Positions 1 through 55,478 of a stretch of DNA of 64,000 bases are shown piece after piece (positions within the stretch are counted from its first letter, which is position 1; each line of letters starts with the position of its first letter). Below the pieces are notes generated by a model. That model did no database searches and was not told the origin of the DNA. It saw only the letters and a list, made by a program, of their open reading frames with translations. Both the position numbers and the translations under genes were made by a program. The stretch comes from Pelomonas aquatica (GTDB lineage: Bacteria > Pseudomonadota > Gammaproteobacteria > Burkholderiales > Burkholderiaceae_C): assembly GCF_026712205.1 (NCBI RefSeq), contig NZ_JAPPUW010000003.1, positions 186,001 through 250,000 of the forward strand, in the 5' to 3' direction.

Positions 1-161
1 AGGGTCCAGCTGCCGGACGGCGCAGGCGCGGGGGCGGGTGCCGGCGCGGGTGCCGGGGCCGCGGTGGCCGAACCACCACCGCCGCCGCAGGCCGTCAACA
101 CGGCGGCAAGGGCGGGCAGCAGGCCGCGCAAGGGGCTGGGTGGGCGGGTGATGGCGTTCAT
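1..161 (-). CDS. Lipoprotein, N-terminal part only (cut by window edge)
   Basis: Only the first 53 codons lie in the window. The protein begins MNAITRPPSPLRGLLPA, has a short hydrophobic stretch, and then a lipobox ending LTAC, so Cys25 is the likely lipidated residue. A Gly-rich stretch and an Ala-Pro repeat linker (about residues 34-47) follow, which is typical of surface or periplasmic lipoproteins that carry a domain on a flexible tether. Its ATG overlaps the stop codon of the upstream GH1 beta-glucosidase gene (ATGA), so it is probably the last visible gene of the minus-strand beta-glucoside operon and translationally coupled to it. A glycan-binding or glycan-cleaving domain downstream is a guess from context; the domain itself is outside the window. 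Confidence 0.7.
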   Translation of the reverse strand, partial: MNAITRPPSPLRGLLPALAAVLTACGGGGGSATAAPAPAPAPAPAPAPSGSWT

Positions 162-1531
162 GGATTGGTCTCCGGGGTGGTCTTGTGAAGTGTCCAGCCG
201 CGCCAGGCGGCGAGGAAGTCGCGGTACCACTCGGCGCTGGCCTTGGGCGTGCGCGCCTGGGTGGCGTAGTCGACGTGCACGATGCCGAAGCGCTTCAGGT
301 AGCCGCTGGCCCATTCGAAGTTGTCCAGCAGGCTCCAGACCATATAGCCGGCCATGGGCACGCCCTGGCGCATGGCGCTGGCGACGGCGGCGATGTGGTC
401 GCGCAGATAGGCGATGCGGTCGTCGTCCTGCACGCGGCCCTGGGCCAGCTTGCCGTCCTTGAAGGCGCCGCCGTTCTCGGTCACGTAGACGGGCGGCAGG
501 CCGGGGTAGTCGCGGTGCAGCAGCAAGAGCAGGTCGGTCAGGCCGGGGGCGTAGACCTCCCAGCCCATGTCGGTGACGGGCAGGCCGCGCTCCTTGGCGT
601 CCCACTCCTGGCCGCCGGCCGACACGACGGTGCGGGTGTAGTAGTTGACACCGAAGTAGTCCATGGGCTGGGCGATCAAGCCCATGTCGCCGGCCTGCAC
701 GACGGGCGCGTCGGCGCCGAGCTCGGCCAGCACCTCCTCGGGATAGCTGCCCTTGAACAGGGGGTCGGCATACCAGCGCCGGCCGCGGGCGTCGGCCAGG
801 GCCGCGGCGGCGATGTCCTCGGGCATGGCCGTGGCCGGCACGCAGGAGGACAGGTTGAGCACGATGCCGAGCCGGCTCCTGGCGCCGTCGGCGCGCAGGG
901 CCTGCAGGGCCAGGCCGTGGCTGAGCAGCAGGTGGTGGCAGACCTGGGCCGCGATCCTGCGGCTCTTGATGCCGGGCGCGAAGCTGCCCTGCTCGTGGCC
1001 CAGCACGGCGACGACCCAGGGTTCGTTGTGCGTGGTGATGCCGTCCAGCCGGTCGCCCAGGCGGGCCTGCACATGGCGGGCGTAGTCGACGAAGCGGTGC
1101 ACGGTGTCGCGGTCGTTCCAGCCGCCGCGGTCCTGCAGGCCCTGCGGCAGGTCCCAGTGGTTCAGCGTCGCGAAGGCCCGGATGCCGCGCGCCTTCAGGC
1201 CATCCACCAGGCGCTCGTAGAAGTCCAGGCCCCTGGCATTGAACTCGCCGTGGCCCAGGGCCTGCACGCGCGGCCAGGCGATGGAGAAGCGGTAGCAGTT
1301 GACGCCCAGCGAGGCGATCAGGTCGAGGTCGCTCTCCAGGCGGTGGAAGTGGTCGCAGGCCACGTCGCCGTTGCTGGCGTCGGCGATGGCGCCGGGCTGC
1401 CTGCAAAAGGCGTCCCAGATGGACTCGCCCTTGCCGTCTTCATGCGCGGCGCCCTCGATCTGGAAGCTGCTGGTGGCCACGCCCCAGACGAAGTCGGGCG
1501 GGAACTGTCGGTGCAGGGGGGCTTGGGTCAT
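158..1531 (-). CDS. GH1 beta-glucosidase
   Basis: A 457-residue protein with the full GH1 barrel: N-terminal FVWGVATSSFQIEG (about residues 14-27), the TLNHWDLP motif (122-129), the acid/base in THNEP (Glu170) and the nucleophile in VTENG (Glu352). No signal peptide is visible, so it should act in the cytoplasm on imported cellobiose-like or other beta-glucosides, releasing glucose. The reading frame stays open further upstream, but the start MTQAPLHRQF, just before the conserved N-terminal motif and 5 bases after the stop of the upstream permease gene, fits the family length of about 450. It is the fourth gene of the operon solute-binding protein, permease, permease, GH1, lipoprotein. Exact substrate cannot be told from sequence; GH1 also includes beta-galactosidases and beta-fucosidases. 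Confidence 0.93.
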   Translation of the reverse strand: MTQAPLHRQFPPDFVWGVATSSFQIEGAAHEDGKGESIWDAFCRQPGAIADASNGDVACDHFHRLESDLDLIASLGVNCYRFSIAWPRVQALGHGEFNARGLDFYERLVDGLKARGIRAFATLNHWDLPQGLQDRGGWNDRDTVHRFVDYARHVQARLGDRLDGITTHNEPWVVAVLGHEQGSFAPGIKSRRIAAQVCHHLLLSHGLALQALRADGARSRLGIVLNLSSCVPATAMPEDIAAAALADARGRRWYADPLFKGSYPEEVLAELGADAPVVQAGDMGLIAQPMDYFGVNYYTRTVVSAGGQEWDAKERGLPVTDMGWEVYAPGLTDLLLLLHRDYPGLPPVYVTENGGAFKDGKLAQGRVQDDDRIAYLRDHIAAVASAMRQGVPMAGYMVWSLLDNFEWASGYLKRFGIVHVDYATQARTPKASAEWYRDFLAAWRGWTLHKTTPETNP

Positions 1532-1536
1532 GGGTT

Positions 1537-2355
1537 TCACTTGACGGCACCGGCGGTCAGGCCCGCGATCAGTTGGCGCGACGAGACGACGAAGAGGACG
1601 AGCAGGGGCAGCGTGGCTATTGCCGACCCCGCCATCAGCGCGCCCCACTCGGTGCTGGTGGTGCTGAACAGGCTGCGCAGGGCCAGCGGCAGCGTGTAGT
1701 TGTCGGCGCTGCGCAGCACGATGAGCGGGCTCATGAAGTTGTTCCATGAGCCGATGAAGGTGATGAGGCCCAGCGTGCCCAGCGCCGGCTTCATCAGCGG
1801 CAGTGCGATGCGCCAGTAGATGCCGAGCTCGCTGCAGCCGTCGATGCGGGCGGCGCTGAGCAGTTCCCTGGGCACGGTGCTGGCCGCGAACTGGCGCATC
1901 AGGAAGATGCCGAAGGCGCTGGCCGCGCCGGGCAGGTAGAGGGCGCGGTGGGTGTCGATCCAGCCCAGCGCGTCCATGACCATGAAGCTGGGGATCATGT
2001 TCATGAAGGCCGGCACCATCAGCGTGCCCATGACGAGTGCGAACAGCGCCCGCTTGAAGCGGAACTCCAGCATCGCGAAGGCATAGCCGGCCATGGAGCA
2101 GAACAGCAGCGTCAGCGCCGTGGACATCAGGCCGACGTAGAGGCTCCAGCCGACGTTCTTCCAGAACGGCAGCCGGGTGGTGAGCAGCCTGATGTTGTCC
2201 AGCAGCTCGCCGCCGAACCCCAGCGGCGGCGGCACGTTGAAGATGTCGGTGCGCGACTGCGTCGCGAACACGAACATGAAGTAGAAGGGCGCGAGCATGA
2301 TGAACGCGCCGACGAGGACGATGGCATAGGCCGCGTACTTCGGGATCGTCCTCAT
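1537..2355 (-). CDS. ABC sugar transporter permease, MalG/CUT1 type
   Basis: A 272-residue inner-membrane protein with about six hydrophobic segments, starting MRTIPKYAAYAIVLVG. The permease EAA loop is seen as ELLSAARIDGCSELGIYWRIALP around residues 180-200, the site that contacts the ATPase. It forms the second half of a CUT1 family importer with the permease encoded just upstream, whose stop codon overlaps this ATG (ATGA). The neighbours are a solute-binding protein and a GH1 beta-glucosidase, so the importer probably brings a di- or oligo-beta-glucoside into the cytoplasm. No ATPase gene occurs in this operon or anywhere in the window; CUT1 importers often share a single ATPase (MalK/MsiK type) encoded elsewhere. 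Confidence 0.93.
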   Translation of the reverse strand: MRTIPKYAAYAIVLVGAFIMLAPFYFMFVFATQSRTDIFNVPPPLGFGGELLDNIRLLTTRLPFWKNVGWSLYVGLMSTALTLLFCSMAGYAFAMLEFRFKRALFALVMGTLMVPAFMNMIPSFMVMDALGWIDTHRALYLPGAASAFGIFLMRQFAASTVPRELLSAARIDGCSELGIYWRIALPLMKPALGTLGLITFIGSWNNFMSPLIVLRSADNYTLPLALRSLFSTTSTEWGALMAGSAIATLPLLVLFVVSSRQLIAGLTAGAVK

Positions 2356-3367: not shown

Positions 3368-4636
3368 TCAGCGATTCGCCCGATGCACCAACAGCGCCTG
3401 CGCGTCTTCCAGCGCCTGTGGAATTGGCTTGCCGTACTCCAGCACGTTGTCGAGCTCGGCGTTGACGACCTCGTCGGCGAACTTGTGCTGCCTGTGCATC
3501 CGCACGACCGGGATGCGGTGCGCCGCCTCGCGCCACAGCTGGCGCGCCTTCTGGCCGCCGAGGAAGGGCAGCGGCACGTCGAAGAACGGCCCCTCCTGCG
3601 CGGCCAGCAGCGCCGGGAAGGCGTCCTGGGACTTGAAGGCGTCCAGCTGGCGCTGGCGGTCCAGCGTCAGCTCCTGGATCAGCTGCCAGGCGAGCTGCTT
3701 GCGCTCCGGTGCCGAGCGGCGCGGGATGGCGTAGTAGGTGCCGCCGTAGGAGCAGTAGGCGTTCTCGGGCAGCTGGGCCACGCGCCATTTGCCGGCCGTG
3801 CCGGGCGCCACCCAGTTGGCCATCTGGCCGGCCATCCAGCCGCCCGACATCTCGGTGGCCAGCCGGCCGCGCTTGAGCATCTCGGCCCAGTCGTTGAACC
3901 AGACCTCGACGCGCGCGTCCAGGCCCAGCCGCCGCACCTTGCGCGCCAGCTCGAAGGCGCGCAGGAAGCGCGGCGACGTGAGCTGCGCCCGCCCCTGACC
4001 ATCGAAGAACTGGCCCTCGCCCGGCGGCGTGCCGGCGCGCACGACGATGTCCTTCAGCAGCCGCACGTCGCCGATCAGGTAGGCGCCGGTCCTGGCCTTC
4101 AGCTCGGCGCCGGCCTCGACGTAGGCGTCCCAGGAGCGCGTCAGGTCCGCCTCCTTCAGCCCGGCCCGGGCCAGCAGGTCGGCGCGGTAGAACAGCGAGC
4201 CCGGCCCGATGTCGGTCGGCATCGCGACGACGTGGCCGTCGCGGTTGCGCGCCGTCTCGAAGGCGAAGGGCACGAAGCCGTCCTTGAAGCGCTCCGCGCC
4301 AAAGGCCGGCGCCGACAGGTCCTCCAGGCCCGAACCGAGCGAGAAGCGCCCCAGGTAGCTCGCCTCCAGCGCGATGACGTCGGGCAGGTGGCCGGACGTG
4401 GATAGCGCTGTCGTCATCGCCGTGTGGTGGTCGTCGTACTGGCGGCTGATGACTTCGGCACGCACCTCGGGATGGCTCCGGCTCCAGCCCTTGAGCACGT
4501 CCCTGGCGATGGCGTCGACCAGCGGGAAGGCCGCCACCGTCAGCGGCGGCCGTTCGGCGGCCCGGCCCAGGCCGGTCGCCGCGCTGGCGGCAGCGGCGAG
4601 CAGGTGGCGGCGGTTGAGGAGAGCGAGGTTGGACAT
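3368..4636 (-). CDS. ABC transporter sugar-binding protein
   Basis: A 422-residue periplasmic protein of the CUT1 solute-binding family. The N-terminus MSNLALLNRRHLLAAAASAA looks like a Tat-type or Sec signal (twin Arg at residues 9-10 followed by an Ala-rich hydrophobic stretch). The body shows family features: HPEVRAEVI, LPDVIALEASYLGRF, AMPTDIGPGSLFYRADLL and a late GGWMAGQMANW, typical of binding proteins that close on an oligosaccharide. It is the first gene of the beta-glucoside import operon. Its start codon is only 3 bases from the end of a LacI-type palindrome (4640-4655), so the operator overlaps the expected transcription start and leaves no room for a Shine-Dalgarno sequence. A later start would destroy the signal peptide, so this ATG is kept. 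The ligand is inferred from the GH1 neighbour only. Confidence 0.9.
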   Translation of the reverse strand: MSNLALLNRRHLLAAAASAATGLGRAAERPPLTVAAFPLVDAIARDVLKGWSRSHPEVRAEVISRQYDDHHTAMTTALSTSGHLPDVIALEASYLGRFSLGSGLEDLSAPAFGAERFKDGFVPFAFETARNRDGHVVAMPTDIGPGSLFYRADLLARAGLKEADLTRSWDAYVEAGAELKARTGAYLIGDVRLLKDIVVRAGTPPGEGQFFDGQGRAQLTSPRFLRAFELARKVRRLGLDARVEVWFNDWAEMLKRGRLATEMSGGWMAGQMANWVAPGTAGKWRVAQLPENAYCSYGGTYYAIPRRSAPERKQLAWQLIQELTLDRQRQLDAFKSQDAFPALLAAQEGPFFDVPLPFLGGQKARQLWREAAHRIPVVRMHRQHKFADEVVNAELDNVLEYGKPIPQALEDAQALLVHRANR

Positions 4637-4639: not shown

Positions 4640-4655
4640 TTGAAAGCGCTTTCAA
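4640..4655. promoter_or_regulatory. LacI-type operator O1 (TTGAAAGCGCTTTCAA)
   Basis: A perfect 16-base palindrome with the central CG step usual for LacI-family operators. It lies between the binding-protein gene and the divergent lacI-type gene, and the same sequence recurs upstream of the TonB receptor (5934, 6108 and 6134). On the minus strand it ends 3 bases before the binding-protein ATG. A weak -10-like CACAAT lies just upstream of it on that strand, so the repressor would sit on the transcription start. Confidence 0.88.
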
Positions 4656-4771: not shown

Positions 4772-5824
4772 ATGACCGACAAGCCGCCCCCCGCCAAGAA
4801 AGCGCCTTCAATCGCCCGCCCGGACGGCGTGGTGACGCTGGAGCAGGTGGCCGAACTGGCCGGCGTGTCGCCGAGCACGGTGTCGCGCATCCTGAACGGC
4901 ACCGCGGCCGTCAGCCAGGCCAAGAAGGACGCGGTGCAGGCCGCCATCCAGGAGCTGGGATTCCGCCCCAACCCGGTGGCGCGCGGCCTGGCCGGCGGGC
5001 GCACGCTGTCCATCGGCGTCGTCACGCAGATCATCTCCAGCCCCTTCTACGGCGAGGCCCTGCTCGGCATCGAGCGCGAACTGGAACGCGCCGGCTATGT
5101 GCCGCTGTTCGTGTCGGGCAACTGGCACGAGGACGACGAGCGCAAGGCCATCGAGACGCTGCTGTCGCGGCGCGTCGACGGCGTCATCGTGCTGGCCGGC
5201 CGGCTCTCCGACGGCGAGCTGGCCAAGGTGGCCGACAGCCTGCCCGTGGTCGTCGTCGGCCGCCAGCTCGGCGGGCCGCAGCTCTACAGCTTCAGCTTCG
5301 ACAACCGGGCCGGCGCGCGCGCGGCCACCCAGCACCTCGTCGACCTGGGCCACCGGCGCATCGCCTTCATCGCCGGCGACCTGCTGCACGACGATGCCGT
5401 CGAGCGCCAGAACGGCTATCTGGACGCGCTGACCGCGGCCGGCATCCCGGCCGACCCCGGCCTCATCGTGCAGAGCGACTACACCGAGGCCGGCGGCCTG
5501 CTGGCCGTCAGCCGCCTGCTGGAGCGGGACAGCCACTTCACGGCGCTGTTCGCATCCAACGACCAGATGGCCATCGGCGCCTGCCTGGGCCTGCACCGGC
5601 GCAATCTGCGCGTGCCCGACGACGTGTCGCTGGTGGGCTTCGACGACCTCATCATGGCGCGCTACGCCATGCCGCCGCTGACGACCATCCGCCAGTCCGT
5701 CTACGAGATCGGCAGCGAGGCCGCGACCGCCATGCTCGAGATGCTGCGCGGCGGCAGGCCCAGGGCCCAGCTGCCCGAGCCCGAGCTGGTTTTGCGCGAG
5801 AGCACGCGGCGCATGCCGCGCTGA
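4772..5824 (+). CDS. LacI-family transcriptional repressor of the beta-glucoside regulon
   Basis: A 350-residue regulator. Residues about 20-43 (VTLEQVAELAGVSPSTVSRILNG) are the LacI helix-turn-helix and hinge start; the rest is a periplasmic-binding-protein-like sensor domain (LSIGVVTQIISSPFYGEALLGI, then VDGVIVLAG, ALFASNDQMAIGACLGL, and VSLVGFDDLIMARY). The ATG at 4772 gives the usual short N-terminal tail before the HTH; the frame is open further upstream but without family similarity. It sits between the ABC/GH1 operon and the TonB receptor gene, each preceded by copies of the same palindrome, so it very probably represses both when the sugar is absent. The inducer is unknown; glucose, cellobiose or another beta-glucoside would fit the neighbours. 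Confidence 0.93.
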   Translation: MTDKPPPAKKAPSIARPDGVVTLEQVAELAGVSPSTVSRILNGTAAVSQAKKDAVQAAIQELGFRPNPVARGLAGGRTLSIGVVTQIISSPFYGEALLGIERELERAGYVPLFVSGNWHEDDERKAIETLLSRRVDGVIVLAGRLSDGELAKVADSLPVVVVGRQLGGPQLYSFSFDNRAGARAATQHLVDLGHRRIAFIAGDLLHDDAVERQNGYLDALTAAGIPADPGLIVQSDYTEAGGLLAVSRLLERDSHFTALFASNDQMAIGACLGLHRRNLRVPDDVSLVGFDDLIMARYAMPPLTTIRQSVYEIGSEAATAMLEMLRGGRPRAQLPEPELVLRESTRRMPR

Positions 5825-5933: not shown

Positions 5934-5949
5934 TTGAAAGCGCTTTCAA
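5934..5949. promoter_or_regulatory. LacI-type operator O2 (TTGAAAGCGCTTTCAA)
   Basis: A perfect copy of the palindrome found at 4640. It lies about 110 bases after the regulator gene and about 200 bases upstream of the two operators next to the TonB receptor promoter. This spacing would allow DNA looping between a remote and a proximal operator, as known for LacI itself. Confidence 0.85.
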
Positions 5950-6133: not shown

Positions 6134-6149
6134 TTGAAAGCGCTTTCAG
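6134..6149. promoter_or_regulatory. LacI-type operator O4 (TTGAAAGCGCTTTCAG)
   Basis: Matches O1 at 15 of 16 positions. It is the operator nearest the TonB receptor gene, ending 36 bases before its ATG, where a bound repressor would cover the probable transcription start. Confidence 0.82.
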
Positions 6150-6185: not shown

Positions 6186-9100
6186 ATGAGAAAGCCACGC
6201 CCCGCCCTTCGCCTCACCAGCCTGGCCGCTGCCAGCGGCCTGCTGTTCGCCGGCGCCGCCGCCCATGCGCAGGCCACCGCACCGGCCGCCGCGGCCAGTG
6301 CGCCGCAGGCCCAGCAGCTCGAAACCGTCGTCGTCACCGGCATCCGCAAGAGCCTGGAGACCTCGGTCAACCTGAAGCGCTCGGCCGCCGGCCTGGTCGA
6401 CGGCATCGTGGCCGAAGACATCGGCAAGTTCCCCGACACCAACCTCGCCGAGGCCATGCAGCGCATCAGCGGCGTGTCCATCGACCGCAGCAACGGCGAA
6501 GGCACCAAGGTCACCGTGCGCGGCATGGGGCCGGACTTCAACCTGGTGCTGCTCAACGGCCGCCAGATGCCCGGCTCCAACATCGACGGCAGCGCGCCCA
6601 GCTCGCGCTCCTTCGACTTCTCCAACCTGGCCTCCGAAGGCGTGTCGGCGCTGGAGGTCTACAAGACCAGCAAGGCCAGCACGCCGACCGGCGGCATGGG
6701 CGCGACGATCAACATCCGCACGCCCCGCCCCTTCGACAGCCGGGAGACCGTCGCCAGCGTCGGCGTGAAGATGGTGCGCGACAGCACCGCGCGGAACCTG
6801 CCCGCCGAGGAGCAGGGCAAGCAGCTGACGCCCGAGCTGTCGGGCATCTACAGCACCCAGTTCGCCGACGGCATGTTCGGCATCGCGCTGATCGGCAGCT
6901 ACCAGGTGCGCGACTCGGGCTACAACCAGGCCGCCGTCACCAGCGGCTGGCACACCTTCAAGGGCAGCGACAGCGGCTGGGGCCCGCTGCCCAACCCGGC
7001 ACCCGAGGTCAAGAACCGCCCGGGGCCGAACGACATCTACAACGTCCCGCAGAACCTGAACTACGCCTTCACCGGCATCCACCGCGAGCGCAGCAACGGC
7101 CAGCTGGTGTTCCAGTTCCGGCCCGTGAAGGACCTGGTCGGCACGCTGGACTACACGATGTCGGAGCAGAAGTTCCGCCAGAAGCGCAACGACATTTCCG
7201 CCTGGTTCAATTTCGGCGGCCAGTTCGGCGAGTACACGCCCGGCCCCATCGCGACGCCGCTGGTCTACGGCGAGCACATCCCCACCGGCAACGCCGACGT
7301 CGCCATGGGCACGTCGCGCACGTCGACCAGCAACAGGAACAGGTCCGTGGGCCTGAACCTGAAGTGGAAGGCGACGGACGCGCTGAACTTCGACTTCGAC
7401 GCCCACCACTCCACCGCCACCTCGGGCGCGGACGACCCGCTGGGCACCAGCGTGACGCTGGGCACGGCCTCCTTCAACCGCGGCGACACGGCGGCCGACT
7501 TCAGCAACAAGTTCCCGGTGCTGAGCATCGCCAACGCGCCTTTGGACCCGACGCTGCAGGAACTGGAGGGCTCGGTGTTCGGCAACAGCTACCAGCGCAA
7601 CGAGATCAACCAGGCCCAGGCCAGCGGCAAATGGAAGATCGACGCCGACAGCAGCCTGGACTTCGGCATCAGCCTGACCGACGTGAAGAACCGCTCGGCC
7701 TACACCAACGTCCAGCGCAACACCTGGGGCCACAACGCCGGCTCGGCGGGCGGCCCCGCCGACATGCCCGACAACATCTGGCACGCCGACTCCATCGGCA
7801 AATACTTCGGCGGCGTGCCGGGCCACGACAGCAGCAAGCTCTACAACCAGTTCTTCTATTTCAATTTCGACGACGTGCGCAATGCCGCCATCAAGGCGGT
7901 GGGCAGCAACCTGCCCTATCTGGCGTCCTTCGACTTCGACAACTCGCAGAACTACGCGGCCAAGCTGGCCGGCCTGCCCAACGTCGGCTACAGCTTCCAG
8001 GACATGCGCACGACCGAGAAGACCCGGTCGCTCTATCTGCAATACAACCGGGCCTGGGAATGGGGCATCCCCTTCGACGCCTCGGTCGGCGCACGCTACG
8101 AGAAGACCGACGTGACCTCGCCGACCCGCCAGTCCATCCCGCAGTCCGTGCAGTGGGCGTCGACGAACGAGCTGTCCATCGTGTCGGGCGACGTCACGTC
8201 CTTCTCGCTGTCGGGCAAGTACAGCTATCTGCTGCCCTCCATCGACCTCAGCGCCGACGTGACGCCCGACACCAAGCTGCGCCTGAGCTACGGCGAAACC
8301 ATCGGCCGCCCCGGCTGGGCCAACCTGCAGGGCGGCATCACGCTGAACAACCCGGGCCGCATCGCCGGCAACGTCGGCAGCGTCGGCAACCCCGACCTGA
8401 AGCCGCTCAAGTCCAGGAACTTCGACTTCTCGGCCGAGCACTACTACGACAAGGGCAGCTACATCAGCGCCAGCTATTTCCGCAAGGACCTGAGCGACTA
8501 CATCGAGCCCGTGTCCGTCGCCCAGACGCCGTTCAACCTGCACACGCCGGCCGGCAGCGCGATGTTCAACGAGGCCATCGGCAAGGGCGGCTGCGGCGCC
8601 ACCGCCTCGGACTGCATCCGCCAATACATCTTCAAGAACTACCCGACGGCGCCGGGCGTGAACGTGGCGACGCAGACCATCACGGGCCAGCCCGGCGACC
8701 CGCTGATGGTCTTCCAGATGGCCACGCAGGCCAACAGCTCGCGCAAGGCCAGCCTCAACGGCATCGAGCTGAACGCCCAGCACAGCTTCCGCAACGGCCT
8801 GGGCTTCTCGGCCAACTTCACGCGGGTGCGCTCCAGCGCCGCCTACCAGGACGGCGTGGTGGGCCAGGAGTTCGCGATCGACGGCCTGGGCGACTCGGGC
8901 AACCTGGTCGGCTTCTACGAAGACACGAGCTACAGCGCCCGCCTGGCCTACAACTGGCGCGGCCGCTACCTGATCACGCACTTCGGCGGCACCGACGGCG
9001 CCCAGCCGCTGTACGTGGAACCACGCGGCCAACTGGACCTGAGCCTGGGCTACAACCTCAACAAGCAACTCTCGCTGCAGCTCGAAGCCATCAACCTGAA

Positions 9101-9200
9101 CGACGCCATCGTCCGCACCTATATGCGGGCGCAGCAGCAGGTCGGCTCGGTCACCCAGCTGGGGCGTCGCTACATGATCGGAGCCCGCTACAAGTTCTGA
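6186..9200 (+). CDS. TonB-dependent receptor, Xanthomonas/Caulobacter carbohydrate type
   Basis: A 1004-residue outer-membrane transporter. It has a signal peptide ending near AAAHAQ, a TonB-box-like LETVVVTG (about residues 45-52), a plug domain (IGKFPDTNLAEAMQRISGVSIDRS, then VTVRGMGPDFNLVLLNGRQMPG) and a long beta-barrel ending in an aromatic residue (MIGARYKF). This matches the TIGR01782-type receptors linked to glycan uptake in Xanthomonas and Caulobacter. The ribosome site GGAG precedes the ATG. With three upstream operators of the local LacI protein and a beta-glucosidase/ABC operon across the intergenic region, it most likely imports a beta-glucan oligosaccharide across the outer membrane. 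An intrinsic terminator follows, then an operon of halogenase-like genes. Confidence 0.95.
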   Translation: MRKPRPALRLTSLAAASGLLFAGAAAHAQATAPAAAASAPQAQQLETVVVTGIRKSLETSVNLKRSAAGLVDGIVAEDIGKFPDTNLAEAMQRISGVSIDRSNGEGTKVTVRGMGPDFNLVLLNGRQMPGSNIDGSAPSSRSFDFSNLASEGVSALEVYKTSKASTPTGGMGATINIRTPRPFDSRETVASVGVKMVRDSTARNLPAEEQGKQLTPELSGIYSTQFADGMFGIALIGSYQVRDSGYNQAAVTSGWHTFKGSDSGWGPLPNPAPEVKNRPGPNDIYNVPQNLNYAFTGIHRERSNGQLVFQFRPVKDLVGTLDYTMSEQKFRQKRNDISAWFNFGGQFGEYTPGPIATPLVYGEHIPTGNADVAMGTSRTSTSNRNRSVGLNLKWKATDALNFDFDAHHSTATSGADDPLGTSVTLGTASFNRGDTAADFSNKFPVLSIANAPLDPTLQELEGSVFGNSYQRNEINQAQASGKWKIDADSSLDFGISLTDVKNRSAYTNVQRNTWGHNAGSAGGPADMPDNIWHADSIGKYFGGVPGHDSSKLYNQFFYFNFDDVRNAAIKAVGSNLPYLASFDFDNSQNYAAKLAGLPNVGYSFQDMRTTEKTRSLYLQYNRAWEWGIPFDASVGARYEKTDVTSPTRQSIPQSVQWASTNELSIVSGDVTSFSLSGKYSYLLPSIDLSADVTPDTKLRLSYGETIGRPGWANLQGGITLNNPGRIAGNVGSVGNPDLKPLKSRNFDFSAEHYYDKGSYISASYFRKDLSDYIEPVSVAQTPFNLHTPAGSAMFNEAIGKGGCGATASDCIRQYIFKNYPTAPGVNVATQTITGQPGDPLMVFQMATQANSSRKASLNGIELNAQHSFRNGLGFSANFTRVRSSAAYQDGVVGQEFAIDGLGDSGNLVGFYEDTSYSARLAYNWRGRYLITHFGGTDGAQPLYVEPRGQLDLSLGYNLNKQLSLQLEAINLNDAIVRTYMRAQQQVGSVTQLGRRYMIGARYKF

Positions 9201-9269: not shown

Positions 9270-9291
9270 GGCCGCGCGAGCGGCCCTTTTT
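9270..9291 (+). terminator. Intrinsic terminator between receptor and halogenase operon
   Basis: GGCCGC and GCGGCC form a perfect 6-bp stem with a GCGA loop, followed directly by CTTTTT. It lies 70 bases after the receptor stop and only 14 bases before the ATG of the halogenase gene. Transcripts of the halogenase operon starting at the receptor promoter would therefore need read-through. Confidence 0.8.
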
Positions 9292-9305: not shown

Positions 9306-10844
9306 ATGGCAGTGGACGACAGACTTCGCGACGTGGCGGTACTCGGCGGCGGCTCGGCCGGCTGGCTGGTCGCCGCGCTGCTGGCGGCCGTGCACGGCGG
9401 GCCGCGCGGCGGCCTGCGCGTCACGCTGGTCGAATCCAGCGAGGCGCCGCCCATCGGCGTCGGCGAGGGCAGCTGGCCGAGCATGCGCGACACGCTGCGC
9501 CGCATCGGCCTGGCCGAGGCCGACTTCGTGCGCCGCTGCCAGGTGAGCTTCAAGCAGGGCTCGCGCTTCGACCGCTGGCGGCAGGGAGGCGGCCCGGATG
9601 ACCGCTACTACCACCCCTTCATGCTGCCGGTCGGTTTCGGCGACGCCGACCTCGTGCCGGCCTGGCTGGCCACGCAAGGCCAGCGCGCCTTTGCCGACGT
9701 CGTCAGCCCCAGCGTGCAGGTCTGCGAGGCCGGCCTCGCCCCCAAGCAGGTGCAGACGCCCGAGTTCGGCGCCGTCGCCAACTACGCCTATCACTTCGAT
9801 GCCGGCCTGTTCGGCCAGGTGCTGCGCGAGCACGCCATCGCCCGTCTCGGCGTGCGCCACGTCGTCGCCCATGTCGACGCCGTGCTGGCCCGCGACGACG
9901 GCGACCTCGCCGCGCTGCAGACCCGCGGCCAGGGCCGCATCGAGGCCGACCTCTTCATCGACTGCTCCGGCCTCGCGTCGCGCCTGATCGGCCAGCACTT
10001 CGGCGTGCCGCTCAGGAGCGAGCGCGACGTGCTGTTCAACGACGCGGCGCTGGCCGTGCAGCTGCCCTACGACCGGCCGGATGCGCCGCTGGCCTCCTGC
10101 ACCATCGCCACCGCCTGGGCCAAGGGCTGGATCTGGGACATCGCGCTGCCGTCGCGGCGCGGCGTCGGCTGCGTCTACTCGCGCGCCCATGCCGGCGACG
10201 ACGAGGCCCAGGCCGCCCTGCTGGCCTATCTGGACGACACCGGCACGCCGGCCGAGCGCCCCGCGCCCCGGCCCATCCGCTTCGAGCCCGGCTATCGCGA
10301 GCGTTTCTGGGTGCGCAACTGCGTGGCCATCGGCCTGGCTTCGGGCTTCATCGAGCCGCTGGAGGCCTCGGCCCTGGCCCTGGTGGAGCTGTCCGCCGCG
10401 CGGCTGTGCGACGAACTGCCGATGACCCGCGCGACGATGGACGGCGTGGCGCGCCGCTTCAACGACGACTTCGGCTACCGCTGGGCCCGCGTGATCGACT
10501 TCCTGAAGCTGCACTATGCGCTGAGCGAACGCGACGACAGCGGCTACTGGCGCGCCCACCGCGACCCCGCCACCTGGCCTGAACGCCTGCGCGAGCTGCT
10601 GCCCGCCTGGCGGCTGCGCCCGCCGGCGCGGCACGACTTCGGCCGCATCGACGAAGTCTTCCCCGCGGCCAGCTACCAGTACATCCTCTACGGCATGGGC
10701 TTCCGCCCCGAGGCCCAGCCGCTCTCCGCCCGCCGGCTGCAGGCCGCCCAGGCCTGCTTCGACGAGGCGGCCCGCCAGGCCCGCCGCTTCCTCTCCGGGC
10801 TGCCGGGTCACCGCAGCCTGATCGACCATCTGCAAGCGCCATGA
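9306..10844 (+). CDS. Flavin-dependent halogenase-like protein (tryptophan halogenase family)
   Basis: A 512-residue member of the PF04820 family. It has the FAD-binding GGGSAGW (residues 14-20), a second flavin motif PPIGVGEGSWP (48-58), the active-site Lys (Lys83 in SFKQGSRF), a WxWxI motif (W275, W277) and the FIEPLEAS motif (348-355) containing the Glu that corresponds to the catalytic Glu of PrnA. The third element of WxWxIP is changed to Ala here (WIWDIA), unlike the other two copies in the window. Family members use FADH2, O2 and halide to halogenate indoles. There is no natural-product cluster nearby; the neighbours are a TonB receptor, a SapC protein, an FIH-like oxygenase and a second halogenase. 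The start at 9306 follows GGGA. The true substrate is unknown. Confidence 0.88.
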   Translation: MAVDDRLRDVAVLGGGSAGWLVAALLAAVHGGPRGGLRVTLVESSEAPPIGVGEGSWPSMRDTLRRIGLAEADFVRRCQVSFKQGSRFDRWRQGGGPDDRYYHPFMLPVGFGDADLVPAWLATQGQRAFADVVSPSVQVCEAGLAPKQVQTPEFGAVANYAYHFDAGLFGQVLREHAIARLGVRHVVAHVDAVLARDDGDLAALQTRGQGRIEADLFIDCSGLASRLIGQHFGVPLRSERDVLFNDAALAVQLPYDRPDAPLASCTIATAWAKGWIWDIALPSRRGVGCVYSRAHAGDDEAQAALLAYLDDTGTPAERPAPRPIRFEPGYRERFWVRNCVAIGLASGFIEPLEASALALVELSAARLCDELPMTRATMDGVARRFNDDFGYRWARVIDFLKLHYALSERDDSGYWRAHRDPATWPERLRELLPAWRLRPPARHDFGRIDEVFPAASYQYILYGMGFRPEAQPLSARRLQAAQACFDEAARQARRFLSGLPGHRSLIDHLQAP

Positions 10845-11569
10845 CCCGCCCCGCCCTGCTCGACAACGTCACCCACCGCCACCTGCGCCTGCACACCGGC
10901 CGCTCCGCCGCCCTGGGCGATGCGCGCCAGTCGGCGCTGGCCCTGCCGGCCGAATTCCGCCAGCTGCAGGCCCACTTCCCCATCGTCTTCCAGCGGGTCG
11001 ACGGCCAGGACGGCGGCAGCGCCTTCCAGCCCATCGCGCTGTTCGGCCTGGAGGAGGGGCAGAACCTCTTTCTGAGCGACGCCGGCTGGGACGCGCCCGT
11101 CGTGCCGATGGCCCTGCAGCGCGACCCCTTCATGATCGGCCGCAATGGCGACACCCTGCAGCTGCACATCGACCTCGACAGCCCGCGCATCGTCGGGCCC
11201 GGGCAGGGCGAGGTCGGCACCGCCGTCTTCCTGCCCCACGGCGGCCACAGCGAATACCTGGACCATGTCGTCAGCCTGCTCGAACACCTGCACGCCCATG
11301 CCCAGCAGCTGCCCGCCTTCATCGCCGCGCTGACCCAGCACCAGCTGCTGGAGCCCTTCGTTCTGGACGTGGAACTGGCGGACGGCAGCCAGAGCCGGCT
11401 GTCGGGCCTGTACACCGTGCACGAAGAGCGCCTGGCCGCGCTGCCCGGCGCCGCGCTGCAGGCACTGGCCCGCGACAACCACCTGCTGCCCATCTACATG
11501 CAGCTGGCCTCGCTGTCGCAGCTGCCCGGTCTCATCGAGCGCCACAACCGGCTCCACGCGATCGGCTGA
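10841..11569 (+). CDS. SapC family protein
   Basis: A 242-residue cytoplasmic protein (no signal peptide) with the SapC-family pattern: an N-terminal HRHLRL, ALPAEFRQLQAHFPIVFQ around residues 37-54, then LFGLEEGQNLFLSDAGWDAPVVPMALQRDPFMIG and a C-terminal HNRL. PF07277 takes its name from a Campylobacter S-layer locus gene, but in Proteobacteria these proteins recur beside TonB receptors and halogenase-like flavoproteins and have no known biochemical function. Its ATG overlaps the stop of the halogenase gene (ATGA), and the cupin gene follows 2 bases after its stop, so the four genes are clearly one operon. The tight link suggests that it works with the two flavoproteins or the oxygenase, perhaps as a chaperone or substrate carrier; that is inference. 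Confidence 0.85.
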   Translation: MTRPALLDNVTHRHLRLHTGRSAALGDARQSALALPAEFRQLQAHFPIVFQRVDGQDGGSAFQPIALFGLEEGQNLFLSDAGWDAPVVPMALQRDPFMIGRNGDTLQLHIDLDSPRIVGPGQGEVGTAVFLPHGGHSEYLDHVVSLLEHLHAHAQQLPAFIAALTQHQLLEPFVLDVELADGSQSRLSGLYTVHEERLAALPGAALQALARDNHLLPIYMQLASLSQLPGLIERHNRLHAIG

Positions 11570-11571
11570 GC

Positions 11572-12579
11572 ATGCGCGCCGTCCCCGACTGGCCAGCCGC
11601 CTGCGATCCCGAGGCCCTGCCCGAGGCGCTGCTGACGGCGGACCGGCCCTACGTCATCCGCGGCGCCTTTGCGCACTGGCCGGTCGTGCAGGCGGCCCGC
11701 CAATCCGGCGAGGCCCTGGCCCGCTACCTGATGGGCCTGTACAACGGTGTGCACGTCGGCCTCTTCCAGCTGCCGCCCGAGGCCCGCGGCCGCGCCTTCT
11801 ATGCGGACGTGGGCCTGAGCCGCTTCAACTTCAGGCGCCACATCGCGACGCTGGATCAGGTGCTCACCGGCCTGCTCGGACTCGCCGGCACGGCCGAGCC
11901 GCCGGCCCTGTATGTCGGCAGCACGACCGTGGAAGCCGTGCTGCCCGGCTTCATGGCCGCGAACCGCCTGGGCCTGGGCGCGCGCGATTCGCTGGCCAGC
12001 CTGTGGCTGGGCAACCGCAGCCGCGTCGCGGCCCACTACGACCTGCCGGACAACCTCGCCATCGCCGCCGCCGGCCGGCGCCGCTTCACGCTGTTCGCGC
12101 CCGGGCAGATCCACAACCTCTACATGGGCCCGCTGGACCCGACGCCCGCCGGCCAGCCCATCAGCCTGGTGGACTTCGCCGCGCCGGACTTCGAGCGCTT
12201 CCCGCGCTTCGCGCAGGCGCTGCAGGCCGGCGAGGTCGCCGAGCTCGACCCCGGCGACGCGATCTTCATCCCCAGCATGTGGTTCCACCACGTCGAAGGC
12301 CTGGAGCCGATCAACCTGCTCATCAACGCCTGGTGGCGCCAGACGCCCGAGTACATGGACTCGCCCGTCAGCGCCCTGCACCTCGCGCTAATGACCCTGC
12401 GCAAGCTGCCCGAGAAGGAACGCCGCATCTGGCAGCAGCACTTCCAGCACTTCGTCTTCGACGCCGACGCCAGCACCTGGGCCCACATCCCGCCCGCCGC
12501 CCGCGGCCTGCTCGACGGCGCCGACGACACCACCTCGCGCCAGGCCCGCGCGCAACTGCTGAGTCAATTGAAACGATGA
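11572..12579 (+). CDS. FIH-like cupin_8 (JmjC-type) 2-oxoglutarate oxygenase candidate
   Basis: A 335-residue protein with a cupin_8 double-stranded beta-helix. The Fe(II)-binding set is visible as HYD (His155, Asp157) and a distal His in MWFHHVEGLEPINLL (His239 or His240), which closely resembles the corresponding motif of the asparaginyl hydroxylase FIH. An Arg-rich strand (GRRRFTLFAP, 168-177) and the N-terminal RPYVIRGAFAHWPVV are also family marks. Such enzymes use 2-oxoglutarate and O2 to hydroxylate protein side chains or small molecules. It is the third gene of the halogenase-SapC-cupin-halogenase operon and its stop overlaps the next ATG. The substrate cannot be read from the sequence; modification of a peptide or protein partner is a reasonable hypothesis because of the FIH-like metal site. 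Confidence 0.83.
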   Translation: MRAVPDWPAACDPEALPEALLTADRPYVIRGAFAHWPVVQAARQSGEALARYLMGLYNGVHVGLFQLPPEARGRAFYADVGLSRFNFRRHIATLDQVLTGLLGLAGTAEPPALYVGSTTVEAVLPGFMAANRLGLGARDSLASLWLGNRSRVAAHYDLPDNLAIAAAGRRRFTLFAPGQIHNLYMGPLDPTPAGQPISLVDFAAPDFERFPRFAQALQAGEVAELDPGDAIFIPSMWFHHVEGLEPINLLINAWWRQTPEYMDSPVSALHLALMTLRKLPEKERRIWQQHFQHFVFDADASTWAHIPPAARGLLDGADDTTSRQARAQLLSQLKR

Positions 12580-14123
12580 ACACGCCCACGACCCAACCCG
12601 TACGCCGCGTCGTCATCGCCGGCGGCGGCACCGCAGGCTGGATGATGGCCGCGCTGATGAGCAAGCTGCTCGGCAGGCAGCTCGACATCAAGCTCGTCGA
12701 GTCCGAGGAGATCGGCACCGTCGGCGTCGGCGAGGCCACCATCCCGGCCCTGCACACCTTTCACAACCTGCTCGGCATCAACGAGGCCGAGTTCATGGCC
12801 GCGACCAACGCGACCTTCAAGCTCGGCATCCATTTCGAGGGCTGGAAGGACATCGGCGAGGACTATTTCCACTCTTTCGGCTCGACCGGCAACGACCACT
12901 GGAGCGCCGGCTTCCAGCATTTCTGGCTCAAGGGCGTGGCGGAGGGCCTGGCCAGGCCCTACACCGACTACAACCCCGAGACGGTGGCGGCCTTTGCCAA
13001 CCGCTTCGCCCACCTGCCGCGCAACGGGCTGAACTACGCCTACCACCTGGACGCCGGCCGCTACGCCCGATACCTGCGCGCGATGAGCGAGGCCCACGGC
13101 GTGCAGCGCATCGAAGGCAGGATCGCCGCCGTGCTGCAGGACGGCCCGCAGGGCCGGGCGGGCGACATCACCGCGCTGCAGATGCAGGACGGCACGCGCA
13201 TAGCCGGCGAGCTCTTCATCGACTGCACCGGCTTTCGCTCCCTGCTGCTGGGCGAGACGCTGGGCGTGGGCTACGAGGACTGGTCCTGCTGGCTGCCCTG
13301 CGACCGCGCGGTGGCCGTGCAGACCGCCTCGGTGCGCGAGGCCTGGCCCTACACGCGGGCCATCTGCCACCCCTTCGGCTGGCAATGGCGCATCCCGCTG
13401 CAGAACCGCGTCGGCAACGGCCTGGTCTACAGCAGCAGGGAGCTCAGCGACGCCGACGCGCCCGAGGTGCTGAAGCAGCACGTCGAGGGCGAGCTGCTGA
13501 TCCCGCCGCGCCTGCTGAAGTTCACCCCCGGCCAGCGCGCCAAGGCGTGGGAGCGCAACTGCATCGCCGTCGGCCTCGCCAGCGGCTTCGTCGAGCCGCT
13601 GGAATCCACCAGCATCCACCTGATCCAGCGTTCCGCCATCCGGCTGATGCAGCTCTTCCCGGGCGGCGGCATCAAGCCGGCCGACATCGAGGAATACAAC
13701 CAGCAGTCCAGACGCGAGCTGGAGCACATCCGCGACTTCATCGTGCTGCACTACCACGTCAACGCGCGCACCGACTCCCGGCTCTGGCGCGATGTGCGCG
13801 ACATGGAGCTGCCGGCCACGCTGCGCCACCGCATCGAACTCTTCCGCGCCAGCGCCCGCGTCTTCCGCCCCAGCGACGAGCTGTTCGCCGAGAACTCCTG
13901 GATCCAGGTCATGCTCGGCCAGGGCATCGCGCCGCAGGCCTACCACCCGGTGGCCGACCTGATGGGCCGGCCGGAACTGAGCAACTTCCTCGGCGACATC
14001 CAGCTCAAGGTCTCGCGCACCGTGGCCGGCCTGCCCGGCCACCAGGCCTATGTCGAGCAGCTGTGCGCGCCCTACCGCAGCGCGTCGACGGCCCAGCTGG
14101 CCGCCACGCCGCTGCGGGCTTGA
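12576..14123 (+). CDS. Flavin-dependent halogenase-like protein, second copy
   Basis: A 515-residue PF04820 protein with every hallmark intact: GGGTAGW (16-22), TVGVGEATIP (48-57), catalytic Lys82 in TFKLGIHF, the WQWRIP motif (269-274) and FVEPLEST (338-345) with Glu340. It is only distantly similar to the first copy (9306), but very similar in motif pattern to the third copy at 53806, so the two operon members are probably not recent duplicates and may act in different steps. Related proteins from Brevundimonas (BrvH) and Xanthomonas campestris were reported to brominate free indole in vitro, yet their role in TonB receptor loci is not known. Last gene of the operon, coupled by ATGA to the cupin gene; a terminator follows at 14267. 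Confidence 0.9.
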   Translation: MNTPTTQPVRRVVIAGGGTAGWMMAALMSKLLGRQLDIKLVESEEIGTVGVGEATIPALHTFHNLLGINEAEFMAATNATFKLGIHFEGWKDIGEDYFHSFGSTGNDHWSAGFQHFWLKGVAEGLARPYTDYNPETVAAFANRFAHLPRNGLNYAYHLDAGRYARYLRAMSEAHGVQRIEGRIAAVLQDGPQGRAGDITALQMQDGTRIAGELFIDCTGFRSLLLGETLGVGYEDWSCWLPCDRAVAVQTASVREAWPYTRAICHPFGWQWRIPLQNRVGNGLVYSSRELSDADAPEVLKQHVEGELLIPPRLLKFTPGQRAKAWERNCIAVGLASGFVEPLESTSIHLIQRSAIRLMQLFPGGGIKPADIEEYNQQSRRELEHIRDFIVLHYHVNARTDSRLWRDVRDMELPATLRHRIELFRASARVFRPSDELFAENSWIQVMLGQGIAPQAYHPVADLMGRPELSNFLGDIQLKVSRTVAGLPGHQAYVEQLCAPYRSASTAQLAATPLRA

Positions 14124-14266
14124 AATCCCCACGGCCGGCCCGACATTTCAGCCCGACGGACAATTCCATCCAACATGAAGCTCAACCCCACGACCCAAGC
14201 CCGCCTCGACACCTAAGGCGTCTTCGACCGTGTTCGGAAGGCGCAAGGCCTTCCGGTTCAGCACTC

Positions 14267-14305
14267 AACCCCGGCAGGCCCGCAGCTCCCGGGGTTTTGT
14301 TTTTC
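14267..14305 (+). terminator. Intrinsic terminator after the halogenase operon
   Basis: AACCCCGG and CCGGGGTT form an 8-bp stem around a 14-base loop, followed by TTGTTTTT. It ends the halogenase operon or, if transcription starts inside the intergenic region, could act as an attenuator before the EF-G paralogue. Confidence 0.75.
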
Positions 14306-14422
14306 CAACTGGGTTCAACCGTGTTCAACCGCACCTTCGACAAGCTGATCGCCACGATTCCCGAGCGCCGGAGCGCGGCTTCGCTGCGCCTGCGCTTCGG
14401 CGTGCTGCCCACGCGCTAGCCC

Positions 14423-14469
14423 GGTGGTTCCACTCCGGGCTGGCATGCCAACCCGAATCAGGAACCACC
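14423..14469 (+). promoter_or_regulatory. Inverted repeat masking the EF-G paralogue ribosome site
   Basis: GGTGGTTCC (14423-14431) and GGAACCACC (14461-14469) are perfect 9-base complements. The second arm contains the only Shine-Dalgarno-like bases (AGGAA) and ends directly at the ATG. Folding would hide the ribosome site, so translation may depend on opening this stem. Confidence 0.6.
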
Positions 14470-16482
14470 ATGAACTCGAACAACCTCCGCAATCTGCGCA
14501 ACATCGGCGTCATCGCCCACGTCGACGCCGGCAAGACCACGACCACCGAACGCATCCTGTTCTACACGGGCGAGAACCATCGCATCGGCGAAGTGGACGA
14601 CGGCAGCACGACGATGGACTTCGACCCCCAGGAGCGCCAGCGCGGCATCACCATCCACAGCGCGGCCACCACCGTGCACTGGCAGGGCACGCAGATCAAC
14701 CTGATCGACACGCCCGGCCACATCGACTTCAACATCGAGGTCAAGCGCTCGCTGCGCGTGCTGGACGGCGCCGTCGTCGTCTTCGACGGCGTGGCCGGCG
14801 TGGAGCCGCAGACCGAGACCAACTGGCGCCTCGCGGACGACTACCGCGTGCCCCGCATCGCCTTCGTCAACAAGCTGGACCGCGCCGGCGCGGACTTCCC
14901 GCGCGTCGTCTCGATGATGCGCGAGCGCCTCGGTGCGCGCGCGCTGCCGCTGCAACTCCCCATCGGCGCCGAGAGCGAATTCCGCGGCGTCGTGGACCTG
15001 CTCGCCCTGCAGGCCCTGGTCTGGGACCGCGACGACGCGAAGGAGCCCCCGCGCGTGACGGAGATTCCGCCCGAGCTGATGAGCGCTGCCCAGGCGGCCC
15101 GTGCACGCCTGGTCGAGGCCGTCGTCGAGCGCGACGACGCGCTGCTGGACGCCTGGCTGCGCGGCGAGAGCCCCGGCGTCGACGCGCTGCGCGCCGGCCT
15201 GCGCGCCGCCACCATCGCCGGCGACATCGTGCCCGTGCTGGCCGGCTCGGCCTTCCGCAACCGCGGCGTGGAGCCGCTGCTGGACGCCGTCGTCGCCTAC
15301 CTCCCGCGCCCGGGTGAAGCCCCCGGCGCGGCGGACACGCAGGGCCCGCTGTCGGCCCTGGCCTTCAAGCTGAGCGCCGACGACCACGGCGCGATGGTGT
15401 TCGTGCGCGTCTACAGCGGCGTGCTCAAGCGCGGTGACACGGTCTTCAACGCGAGCACCGGCAAGGCCGAGCGCGCGTCGCGGCTCTACGAGATCCACGC
15501 GGACCGCCGCGTCGAGCGCGACGAACTCGTCGCCGGCGACATCGCGGGCATCGTCGGCCTGAAGGACGTGCTGACCGGCCACACGCTGGCTTCCGCCAAG
15601 GACGCGCCCGTGCTGGAAAGCATCGAAGCGCCCGAGGCCGTCATCGACGTCGCCATCGAGCCCCGCAGCCAGGACGGCACGGCCGCCCTCGCCAAGGGCC
15701 TGGCCGTGCTCGTCCGCGAAGACCCGTCGCTGCGCCTGCGCCAGGACACCGACTCGGGCCAGACCCTGCTGTCCGGCATGGGCGAGCTGCAGCTGGAGGT
15801 GGCGGTGGAGAAGCTGCGTTCGCGCTTCGGCGTCGAGGTGCAGATGGGCCGCCCGCAGGTCGCCTACCGCGAGACCCTCACGGCGGCTGCCGAGGTGCAC
15901 CACCTGCACCGCAAGCAGAGCGGCGGCCCCGGCCAGTTCGCCGAGCTGACGCTGCGCGTGGCGCCGCTGCCGCGCGGCGCGGGCATGCGCTTCGACAGCA
16001 CGGTGGTGGGCGGCGCGATCCCGCGCGAGTTCATCCCGGCCGTCGAGGTGGGCGTGCGCAAGGCCGCGCTGGCCGGGCCGTTCGCCGGCTACCCGCTGGT
16101 GGACTTCGAGGCCGTGCTCGTCGACGGCAGCCACCATGTGCGCGACTCGTCGGCGCTGGCCTTCGAGCTGGCGGCGGCGGCGGCGCTGCGCGAGGCGGTG
16201 CTGAAGGCCTCGCCGGTGGTGCTGGAGCCGCTGATGGCCGTCGAGGTCATCACGCCGGCCGACTACCTCGGCGACGTCATCGGCGACCTGCTGCGGCGGC
16301 ACGGCCATGTGCAGGGCCAGGACGCGCGCGGCAACGCGGTCGTCGTGACGGCCCATGTGCCGCTGGCGCAGATGTTCGGCTACATCGGCCATCTGCGCGC
16401 CCTCAGCTCGGGGCGCGCGCAGTTCACGATGCAGCTGAGCCACTATGCAGAAGTGCCGGCGCGCGCCGCGCTGGCGGCATGA
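14470..16482 (+). CDS. fusA2: Elongation factor G paralogue
   Basis: A 670-residue translational GTPase. It shows the G1 loop [12 protein letters not shown] (16-27), the switch [10 protein letters not shown], the NKLD specificity motif and the later EF-G domains ([58 protein letters not shown]; and the C-terminal [24 protein letters not shown]). It is slightly shorter than canonical EF-G (about 700), and no ribosomal or tuf genes surround it, so it is more likely the extra EF-G that many Betaproteobacteria carry than the main fusA of the str operon. Paralogues of this kind can serve in ribosome recycling, stress or slow growth. Start chosen from the family N-terminus and the adjacent AGGAACC; an inverted repeat encloses that site. 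Confidence 0.9.
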
Positions 16483-21740: not shown

Positions 21741-21800
21741 GGCATTCACTCCTTGGAGGGATCGGGAACACGCCCACCTTGCGCGGGCAGCAGCCGGCCA

Positions 21801-21823
21801 CGGCCCCGTCCCGGACGGGGCCG
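21801..21823 (-). other. Strong hairpin between GH109 and DUF3472 genes
   Basis: CGGCCCCGTCC and GGACGGGGCCG are perfect 11-base complements around a single base, in the only sizeable gap (103 bases) of this operon. No T tract follows on the minus strand. It may protect the upstream part of the transcript or lower expression of the last two genes. Confidence 0.6.
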
Positions 21824-21843
21824 CGCGGCACAACGGCAGGGGA

Positions 21844-26171: not shown

Positions 26172-26202
26172 CTCATCTCCTCGTTGAATCTCTGAACTCG
26201 GC

Positions 26203-53792: not shown

Positions 53793-53805
53793 GGTGATGC
53801 TGGGG

Positions 53806-55332: not shown

Positions 55333-55411
55333 GGCCGCCTCCTGCAAGGGCGCGGCGAACGGAAGCCGCCCGGCGCGGTCGGGTTCACTGCTTGTCTCCA
55401 GAAATCAAAAG

Positions 55412-55478
55412 GCAACCACAGAGGCACAGAGCCACGGAGAAACACGCACAGAGCGCTTCTCTGTGCCTCTGTGGTTGC
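55412..55478. repeat. Dispersed CCACAGAGGCACAGAG hairpin repeat, copy 3
   Basis: Left arm 55412-55441 and right arm 55457-55478 pair over 20 perfect bases, both built on CCACAGAGGCACAGAG. It is the same element as at 3276. It lies just upstream of the halogenase gene, within its probable leader or promoter region. Confidence 0.85.

Follow-up and report, generated by a model that had tools for sequence, protein, structure and literature searches.

The four genes that follow a TonB-dependent receptor in a sugar locus of Pelomonas aquatica encode two PF04820 flavoproteins (HalA and HalB), a SapC protein and a cupin_8 Fe(II)/2OG oxygenase, and are tentatively read here as a receptor-dedicated oxidative tailoring module, with a probability of roughly one in three (0.35). 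The favoured form of this reading, by analogy with the CciT-CciO system, is that the enzymes would tailor either the receptor itself or something that only the receptor needs. Because the four-gene set is kept together in many bacteria, it probably serves the receptor or its cargo.

Organization and regulation of the locus

The window is the whole stretch of 64,000 nucleotides that was analyzed, and the following features in it are relevant to the operon.

158..1747, minus strand: GH1 enzyme, in the divergently oriented sugar operon (PF00232, 511.6 bits)
3368..4636, minus strand: ABC sugar-binding protein (PF01547/PF13416)
4640..4655, no strand assigned: LacI-type operator in front of the divergent ABC and GH1 genes (TTGAAAGCGCTTTCAA, exact)
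about 4772..5824, plus strand: LacI-family regulator (PF00356 and Peripla_BP_3; ATG at 4772)
5934..5949, no strand assigned: LacI-type operator between regulator and receptor (TTGAAAGCGCTTTCAA, exact)
6134..6149, no strand assigned: LacI-type operator beside the receptor start (TTGAAAGCGCTTTCAA, one mismatch)
6186..9200, plus strand: TonB-dependent receptor of the TIGR01782 family (644.3 bits; cut-off 310 bits)
9270..9285, plus strand: terminator-like stem with a CTTTTTGTCT tail in the receptor-HalA gap, read from the sequence (3 such sites in the region vs 4.0 in shuffles)
9306..10844, plus strand: HalA, PF04820 flavoprotein (385.7 bits; nearest solved structure 2PYX)
10841..11569, plus strand: SapC, PF07277 (208.8 bits)
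11572..12579, plus strand: cupin_8/FIH-like Fe(II)/2OG oxygenase (PF13621, 203.2 bits)
12576..14123, plus strand: HalB, PF04820 flavoprotein of the Xcc4156 type (609.3 bits)

In the Pfam scan, frames matching the PF00528 permease family sit between the genes for the ABC sugar-binding protein and the GH1 enzyme. Downstream of the LacI regulator and the TIGR01782 receptor the gene order is HalA, SapC, cupin and HalB in a tight operon, and the profile matches confirmed the initial annotation of two PF04820 proteins, SapC and an FIH-like cupin_8 protein behind a TonB receptor. HalA/SapC and cupin/HalB each overlap as ATGA, and 2 bases separate SapC from cupin. The statement that there is no natural-product cluster nearby stands for the part of the window genes covered by the Pfam scan, among which no PKS or NRPS gene was found.

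The LacI-type operators proposed at the receptor were borne out. At one mismatch or fewer, TTGAAAGCGCTTTCAA occurs in only three places in the 5.12 Mb genome, all of them within this locus, and the GH1 and ABC sugar transporter genes share this operator with the receptor of the HalA-HalB operon. The stem between the receptor and HalA is a weak candidate for an attenuator.

Conservation of the gene set with the receptor

Conserved co-occurrence had been set beforehand as the test that could refute the proposal, and it proved to be strong. Among 70 usable receptor loci, picked by receptor sequence alone, at least one of the four module genes lay directly downstream of the receptor in 63, and all four were present with their order kept in 33, an association well beyond chance in this neighbourhood survey. 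The locus surveys also support the description of these genes as a conserved set that is controlled by a sugar regulator and linked to TonB receptors. The TIGR01782 receptor is the constant partner of the module across loci, and within the surveyed family the most constant module member is the cupin, which lies within the downstream gene run in 62 of 70 receptor loci. Among the titles and abstract starts covered by a literature search without preprints or most subscription journals, none describes the four-gene set, which may have been mentioned elsewhere.

A different reading takes SapC or another partner protein as the target of the enzymes, with SapC serving the receptor once it has been modified. 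This would fit the position of SapC between enzyme genes in the operon, as well as its occurrence beside PF04820 genes without a cupin in three loci (L108, L119 and L120) and between PF04820 and DUF6445 genes in three others (L254, L262 and L275). Structure comparison of the SapC model (pLDDT 96.3) found no solved relative, which also favours this reading. However, the cupin occurs without SapC in 10 of the 70 receptor loci (9 cupin only, 1 cupin-HalB), and cupin-HalB is present without SapC in L202 and L216. Additionally, 63 of the 81 SapC loci sampled had no PF04820 gene within 6 kb, which indicates that SapC does not need these enzymes, and SapC as the target is considered improbable. SapC acquires from this work a genomic setting and a confident model.

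The flavoproteins HalA and HalB

Both flavoproteins match the PF04820 profile with its FAD-binding module well above the cut-off of 21 bits. The active-site Lys and Glu were correctly described as intact in both (K83 and E353 in HalA, K81 and E342 in HalB); among relatives, both residues are kept in 68/68 A-type proteins and each in 88/92 B-type proteins. The WxWxIP motif reads WQWRIP in HalB and WIWDIA in HalA, which differs at the last residue, and that position is also non-Pro in 66 of 68 A-type proteins.

HalB matches Xcc4156 (PDB 6Y1W) at 694.7 bits over residues 6-512. A module of Xanthomonas arboricola (L163), in the order receptor-SapC-cupin-HalB, has a HalB that reaches 1024.9 bits against Xcc4156. 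On sequence grounds, Xcc4156, a crystallised halogenase, is of the HalB type of the receptor module, an assignment that is new here, with the operon context of this type read from the X. arboricola relative rather than from the neighbourhood of Xcc4156 itself. Of the group C indole halogenases Xcc4156 and BrvH (6FRL), HalB is of the type of the former, but the available parts of the Xcc4156 and BrvH papers make no mention of receptor, SapC or cupin partners.

These relatives bear on a somewhat unlikely alternative, in which the enzymes act on a small molecule entering via the receptor or needed by it, such as a ligand, an inhibitor or a self-made cofactor. According to the available sections of two papers, PF04820 enzymes of this group accept indole or its derivatives in vitro (PMC5945002, PMC7336383). 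Halogenation of indole derivatives is reported, in the part of the source at hand, for the HalB-type homologue Xcc4156. The enzymes here also seem to reside in the cytoplasm, the compartment in which a small molecule would arrive after import, and the CciT-CciO authors, in the portion available, discuss a small-molecule type of model for their oxygenase. However, the BrvH authors doubt in the accessible text that indole is the natural substrate because activity on it is low, and SapC, having no recognised enzyme fold, would be without an obvious place. The native substrates of Xcc4156 and BrvH are given as unknown in the same excerpts. With a small molecule as its target, the module would represent new partner chemistry for sugar uptake.

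The cupin oxygenase and DUF6445

The FIH-like HxD...H metal site ascribed to the cupin_8 protein was verified, with the triad H155-x-D157...H239 invariant in 12/12 operon cupins. A profile built from these 12 sequences hits both FIH (3.7e-26) and JMJD5 (5.1e-23). The operon cupins thus resemble the cupin_8 JmjC hydroxylases FIH and JMJD5 in profile match and intact triad, but they differ in being bacterial and receptor-linked and in having an apparent Arg (Arg170) at the likely equivalent of the FIH 2OG-binding lysine K214.

DUF6445 (PF20043) is a further module partner in relatives, where it follows HalB or is fused to it (a HalB-DUF6445 fusion was found in three genomes). It has an HxD...H...R motif and an oxygenase fold. 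Its closest folds are the OGFOD1/Tpa1 ribosomal prolyl hydroxylases, but no PDB sequence match was found (one DUF6445 query, best E 0.83). Small-molecule 2OG enzymes are also among its close folds, which is consistent with a small-molecule target. DUF6445 looks like a 2-oxoglutarate oxygenase, a new partner that acquires a likely enzyme class from this analysis.

Adjacent and co-conserved receptor and oxygenase genes (here the cupin, at the frequency given above) are a likeness to CciT-CciO, PiuA-PiuC and Fiu-YbiX. However, the receptors of those systems import iron, according to the portions of the reports available, whereas the receptor here is in a sugar locus, and the same portions describe one PiuC-family oxygenase and do not mention flavoproteins or SapC. 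Since both oxygenases here, PF13621 and PF20043, are outside the CciO/PiuC family, the module is not classed as a CciT-CciO member.

Sugar-related neighbours

Recurrent neighbours over 86 loci, counted by cluster representative, include GH3 (27), GH16 (26) and GH1 (23), which suggest beta-glucan use, and the glycan genes at this locus probably serve beta-glucan oligosaccharides. The GH1 cluster was missing from the visible stretch in 63 of the 86 loci, and the loci in which the module follows a receptor have GH3, GH16 or GH1, or lack all three within the visible stretch. Such varied neighbours behind one module are hard to reconcile with a single ligand, which argues against a small-molecule target. 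The neighbour counts also argue against a role in detoxifying or using aromatic aglycones of plants freed from beta-glucosides. The GH1 gene and ABC sugar transporter under the receptor's operator speak for this idea of the initial annotation, but no aromatic-degradation family was found among the ten neighbour clusters scanned (24 listed), and it now appears most improbable.

PF04820 enzymes are usually part of natural-product or peptide pathways, and a hidden pathway of this kind might merely share the receptor's promoter. In line with this, the lanthipeptide halogenase MibH falls in group C in the available part of its source (PMC8269204). However, no biosynthetic family was found among the ten scanned neighbour clusters (24 listed), and the neighbour that stays constant is the receptor; a hidden pathway is thus very unlikely.

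Search for a modified receptor residue

The enlarged receptor set held 159 sequences, or 145 once duplicates were removed, of which 4 were dropped from the tree-aware scan (200 null draws each). In the remaining 141 receptors no residue convincingly tracked enzyme presence. W255 was considered as a HalB target, since among the initial 86 module receptors W was present in 74/74 with HalB and in 3/12 without. It was rejected because in the enlarged set it was W in 104/106 with HalB and still in 25/39 without, and because two HalB-bearing relatives, L292 (Y) and L294 (F), already differ.

For HalA losses, 4 columns changed in at least 3 loss clades compared to 0.92 expected, which 6% of draws reached. 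HalB losses gave 1 column, F843, compared to 0.06 expected (6% of draws; 3% with aromatic columns only and 1.5% for F to Y in at least 2 clades), and SapC losses gave no changed column in the 141 receptors. Cupin losses gave 3 columns compared to 0.04 expected (0/200 draws), one of them aromatic, again F843 (likewise 0/200), and 22 columns changed at 2 or more clades (0.5%). Among the listed columns, this cupin-loss excess appears to rest on the distant receptors L108, L119, L120, L124 and L127, whose long branches fall outside the null model. F843 is likewise not claimed as an enzyme-linked site. Its changes are mostly in reduced-module receptors (L299, L302, L311, L337, L343 and L348) that group in one HalA-loss clade, and Y is also found at this position in L179, which has all four genes.

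Proposed role of the module

In the preferred reading of oxidative tailoring for the receptor, HalA, HalB and the oxygenases would have a single common target in the cytoplasm, one present at every such locus. This target would most probably be the receptor polypeptide prior to its export, and SapC would be the adaptor presenting it to the enzymes. The cupin would act first and the flavoproteins later, an order proposed because no other member is as constant as the cupin in the surveyed family. The enzymes may hydroxylate or halogenate their target, and the side chains altered in this way would tune ligand capture or gating. It is possible, though on balance doubtful, that Proteobacteria mature their outer-membrane sugar receptors in this way before export, using a dedicated set of flavin and 2-oxoglutarate oxygenases with a SapC adaptor, which would make this a halogenase-family post-translational modification system. 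If true, such maturation would supply the native substrate so far lacking for halogenases of the BrvH and Xcc4156 types, and the receptor as target would mean a new control layer over glycan uptake in Proteobacteria. No native substrate is known for the orphan indole halogenases that have been expressed and crystallised, and with the Xcc4156 type located in a conserved receptor operon the question can be put to a direct test. New here are DUF6445 as a partner, its fusions with HalB and the operon setting of enzymes of the Xcc4156 type.

Results

The genes of the module follow a TonB receptor of the TIGR01782 class in a window of 70% GC, from a genome of 5.12 Mb, and are arranged as follows.

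9270-9285: terminator-like stem between the receptor and HalA
9306-10844: HalA, PF04820 flavoprotein, after the TIGR01782 TonB receptor
10841-11569: SapC
11572-12579: cupin_8 protein
12576-14123: HalB, PF04820 flavoprotein

The initial annotation had described these genes as closely coupled by overlapping stops and starts, which was borne out by ATGA overlaps at HalA/SapC and cupin/HalB and a gap of 2 bases at SapC/cupin. It had also placed LacI-type operators at the receptor, and TTGAAAGCGCTTTCAA was indeed found at 4640, at 5934 and, with one mismatch, at 6134; a whole-genome search allowing up to one mismatch gave no further copy. Opposite the LacI gene and divergent from it lie a GH1 enzyme, permease frames and an ABC sugar-binding protein, and since TTGAAAGCGCTTTCAA is confined to these three sites, uptake, hydrolysis and the module look like one local regulon. 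The stem before HalA could lower expression of the enzymes relative to the receptor; terminator-like sites in the region were not more common than in shuffles. Downstream of the operon is an EF-G-like GTPase gene (14230-16482), and a gene of its cluster also stands after the module in the surveyed loci L139, L140 and L144.

SapC was present in 138 of 398 genomes of the phylum. Among the matches listed by score, 81 SapC loci were examined (80 fetched and one of the own genome), with a PF04820 gene within 6 kb in 18 and none within 6 kb in 63. At five loci (L088, L103, L106, L112, L118) the gene that precedes SapC, at 44-199 bases, encodes a different class of TonB receptor, and no PF04820 gene lies within 6 kb of SapC. 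A genome scan with the operon cupins found at least 585 relatives, the best 80 of which were kept. The closest among the matches listed were from Roseateles puraquae and Pelomonas (79% identity), and within the best 80 the order receptor-(HalA)-SapC-cupin-HalB was seen in Roseateles, Massilia, Duganella, Lysobacter, Pseudoxanthomonas, Xanthomonas, Steroidobacter, Porticoccaceae and one alphaproteobacterial MAG. At the cupin and SapC query loci, HalA-SapC-cupin-HalB followed the receptor in 51 of 99 entries (one receptor counted twice) and SapC-cupin-HalB in 19. Because that set is biased by its queries, a second set was drawn by receptor sequence alone, giving 73 places (72 fetched, 70 usable), which fall in 55 of the 294 genomes from one family.

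A lack of conserved co-occurrence had been named as grounds for refutation; in the receptor-only set, a module gene lay directly downstream of the receptor at 63/70 loci, and all four genes stood in the order HalA-SapC-cupin-HalB at 33. The remaining loci carried SapC-cupin (11), cupin alone (9), SapC-cupin-HalB (4), SapC-cupin-HalB with DUF6445, a predicted 2OG oxygenase (3), other forms (3) or nothing (7). A nested series fits 67/70. Cupin was found downstream at 62/70 loci, SapC at 52/70 and PF04820 at 43/70. In this family cupin is the module gene kept most constantly; outside the family, cupin is absent in L108, L119, L120 and L124, and cupin, SapC and PF04820 genes have each been seen as the sole module member behind a receptor. 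HalB-DUF6445 fusions occur in three Roseateles-type genomes (L020:9447-11738, which is contig C54 of the own genome; L176:3364-5616; L267).

HalB scored 694.7 bits against Xcc4156 (6Y1W), and a Xanthomonas arboricola HalB behind receptor-SapC-cupin scored 1024.9 bits; judged by this match and the locus of this relative, Xcc4156 is of the HalB type of the module. The best match of HalA among solved structures is 2PYX (509.8 bits). The catalytic Lys and Glu, said earlier to be intact in both flavoproteins, are retained in HalA and HalB, as in 68/68 A-type and 88/92 B-type proteins (each protein typed after whichever of HalA and HalB it scored higher against), and the Pro of WxWxIP is missing in 66/68 A-type proteins. 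The proposed FIH-like HxD...H site also held, being invariant in 12/12 operon cupins, and the operon cupin has sequence matches to FIH and JMJD5. A crude hydropathy check found no signal-peptide-like N-terminus in SapC, cupin or HalB; the hydrophobic stretch that it found in HalA is read as the FAD motif.

In the own genome, 10 of 12 PF04820 matches are full-length genes, and 10 of 31 TIGR01782 matches are receptors that score above the cut-off. Seven of these ten genes (three on contig C23, one each on C12, C54, C27 and C30) have such a receptor no more than about 5 kb away, and an eighth (C22) adjoins another TonB receptor. The C7 gene is at a contig end with its upstream side beyond the contig, and the C8 gene had no receptor among the neighbours scanned. 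For three receptors, those of C1, C10 and C25, genome profile matches placed no module genes on the contig stretch. In the C30 locus (L023, C30:1-12100) the module is rearranged: receptor-PF04820 is accompanied by a second receptor, a DUF6445 gene and, on the opposite strand, two cupin_8 genes. The window also contains a second sugar locus (51495-62868), which has a PF04820 gene of its own (53806-55347), GH31, a TIGR01782 receptor at 59878 and a ROK-family regulator-like gene.

Discussion

The constant element among the loci is the receptor. The module enzymes may tailor it before export, or they may make something needed by the receptor alone. Several of the oxygenases have protein-hydroxylase relatives and SapC has no recognised enzyme fold, which favours the receptor as the target of tailoring, with a probability of roughly 0.35; this is not set higher because no receptor residue convincingly tracked enzyme presence in a direct sequence test. 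A precedent for a receptor that needs an oxygenase is CciT, which specifically requires the cytoplasmic oxygenase CciO, without CciT protein being lost and with the target reported as unknown (PMC12004947, PMC12004943); that pair serves iron.

All families of the module are already known, as are receptor-oxygenase pairs. A literature search, judged by titles and the start of abstracts, found no paper on this gene set among those listed; it covered subscription journals thinly and preprints fell outside its scope, so an earlier mention is possible.

The neighbour clusters that recurred around 86 module loci, each named from one representative, were GH3 (27 loci), GH16 (26) and GH1 (23); next in frequency were an ABC ATPase that has MalK-type domains, at 19 loci, and an MFS protein, at 14. 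These neighbours fit use of beta-glucan, laminarin or beta-glucosides. The module is not tied to GH3, GH16 or GH1, since only one of the 12 Xanthomonas loci among the 86 (L196) has such a neighbour in the stretch seen. Another glycan locus in the window (18187-29649) encodes GH35, a DUF3472 protein with ricin-type lectin repeats, a GH109-type oxidoreductase, a TonB receptor and GH31.
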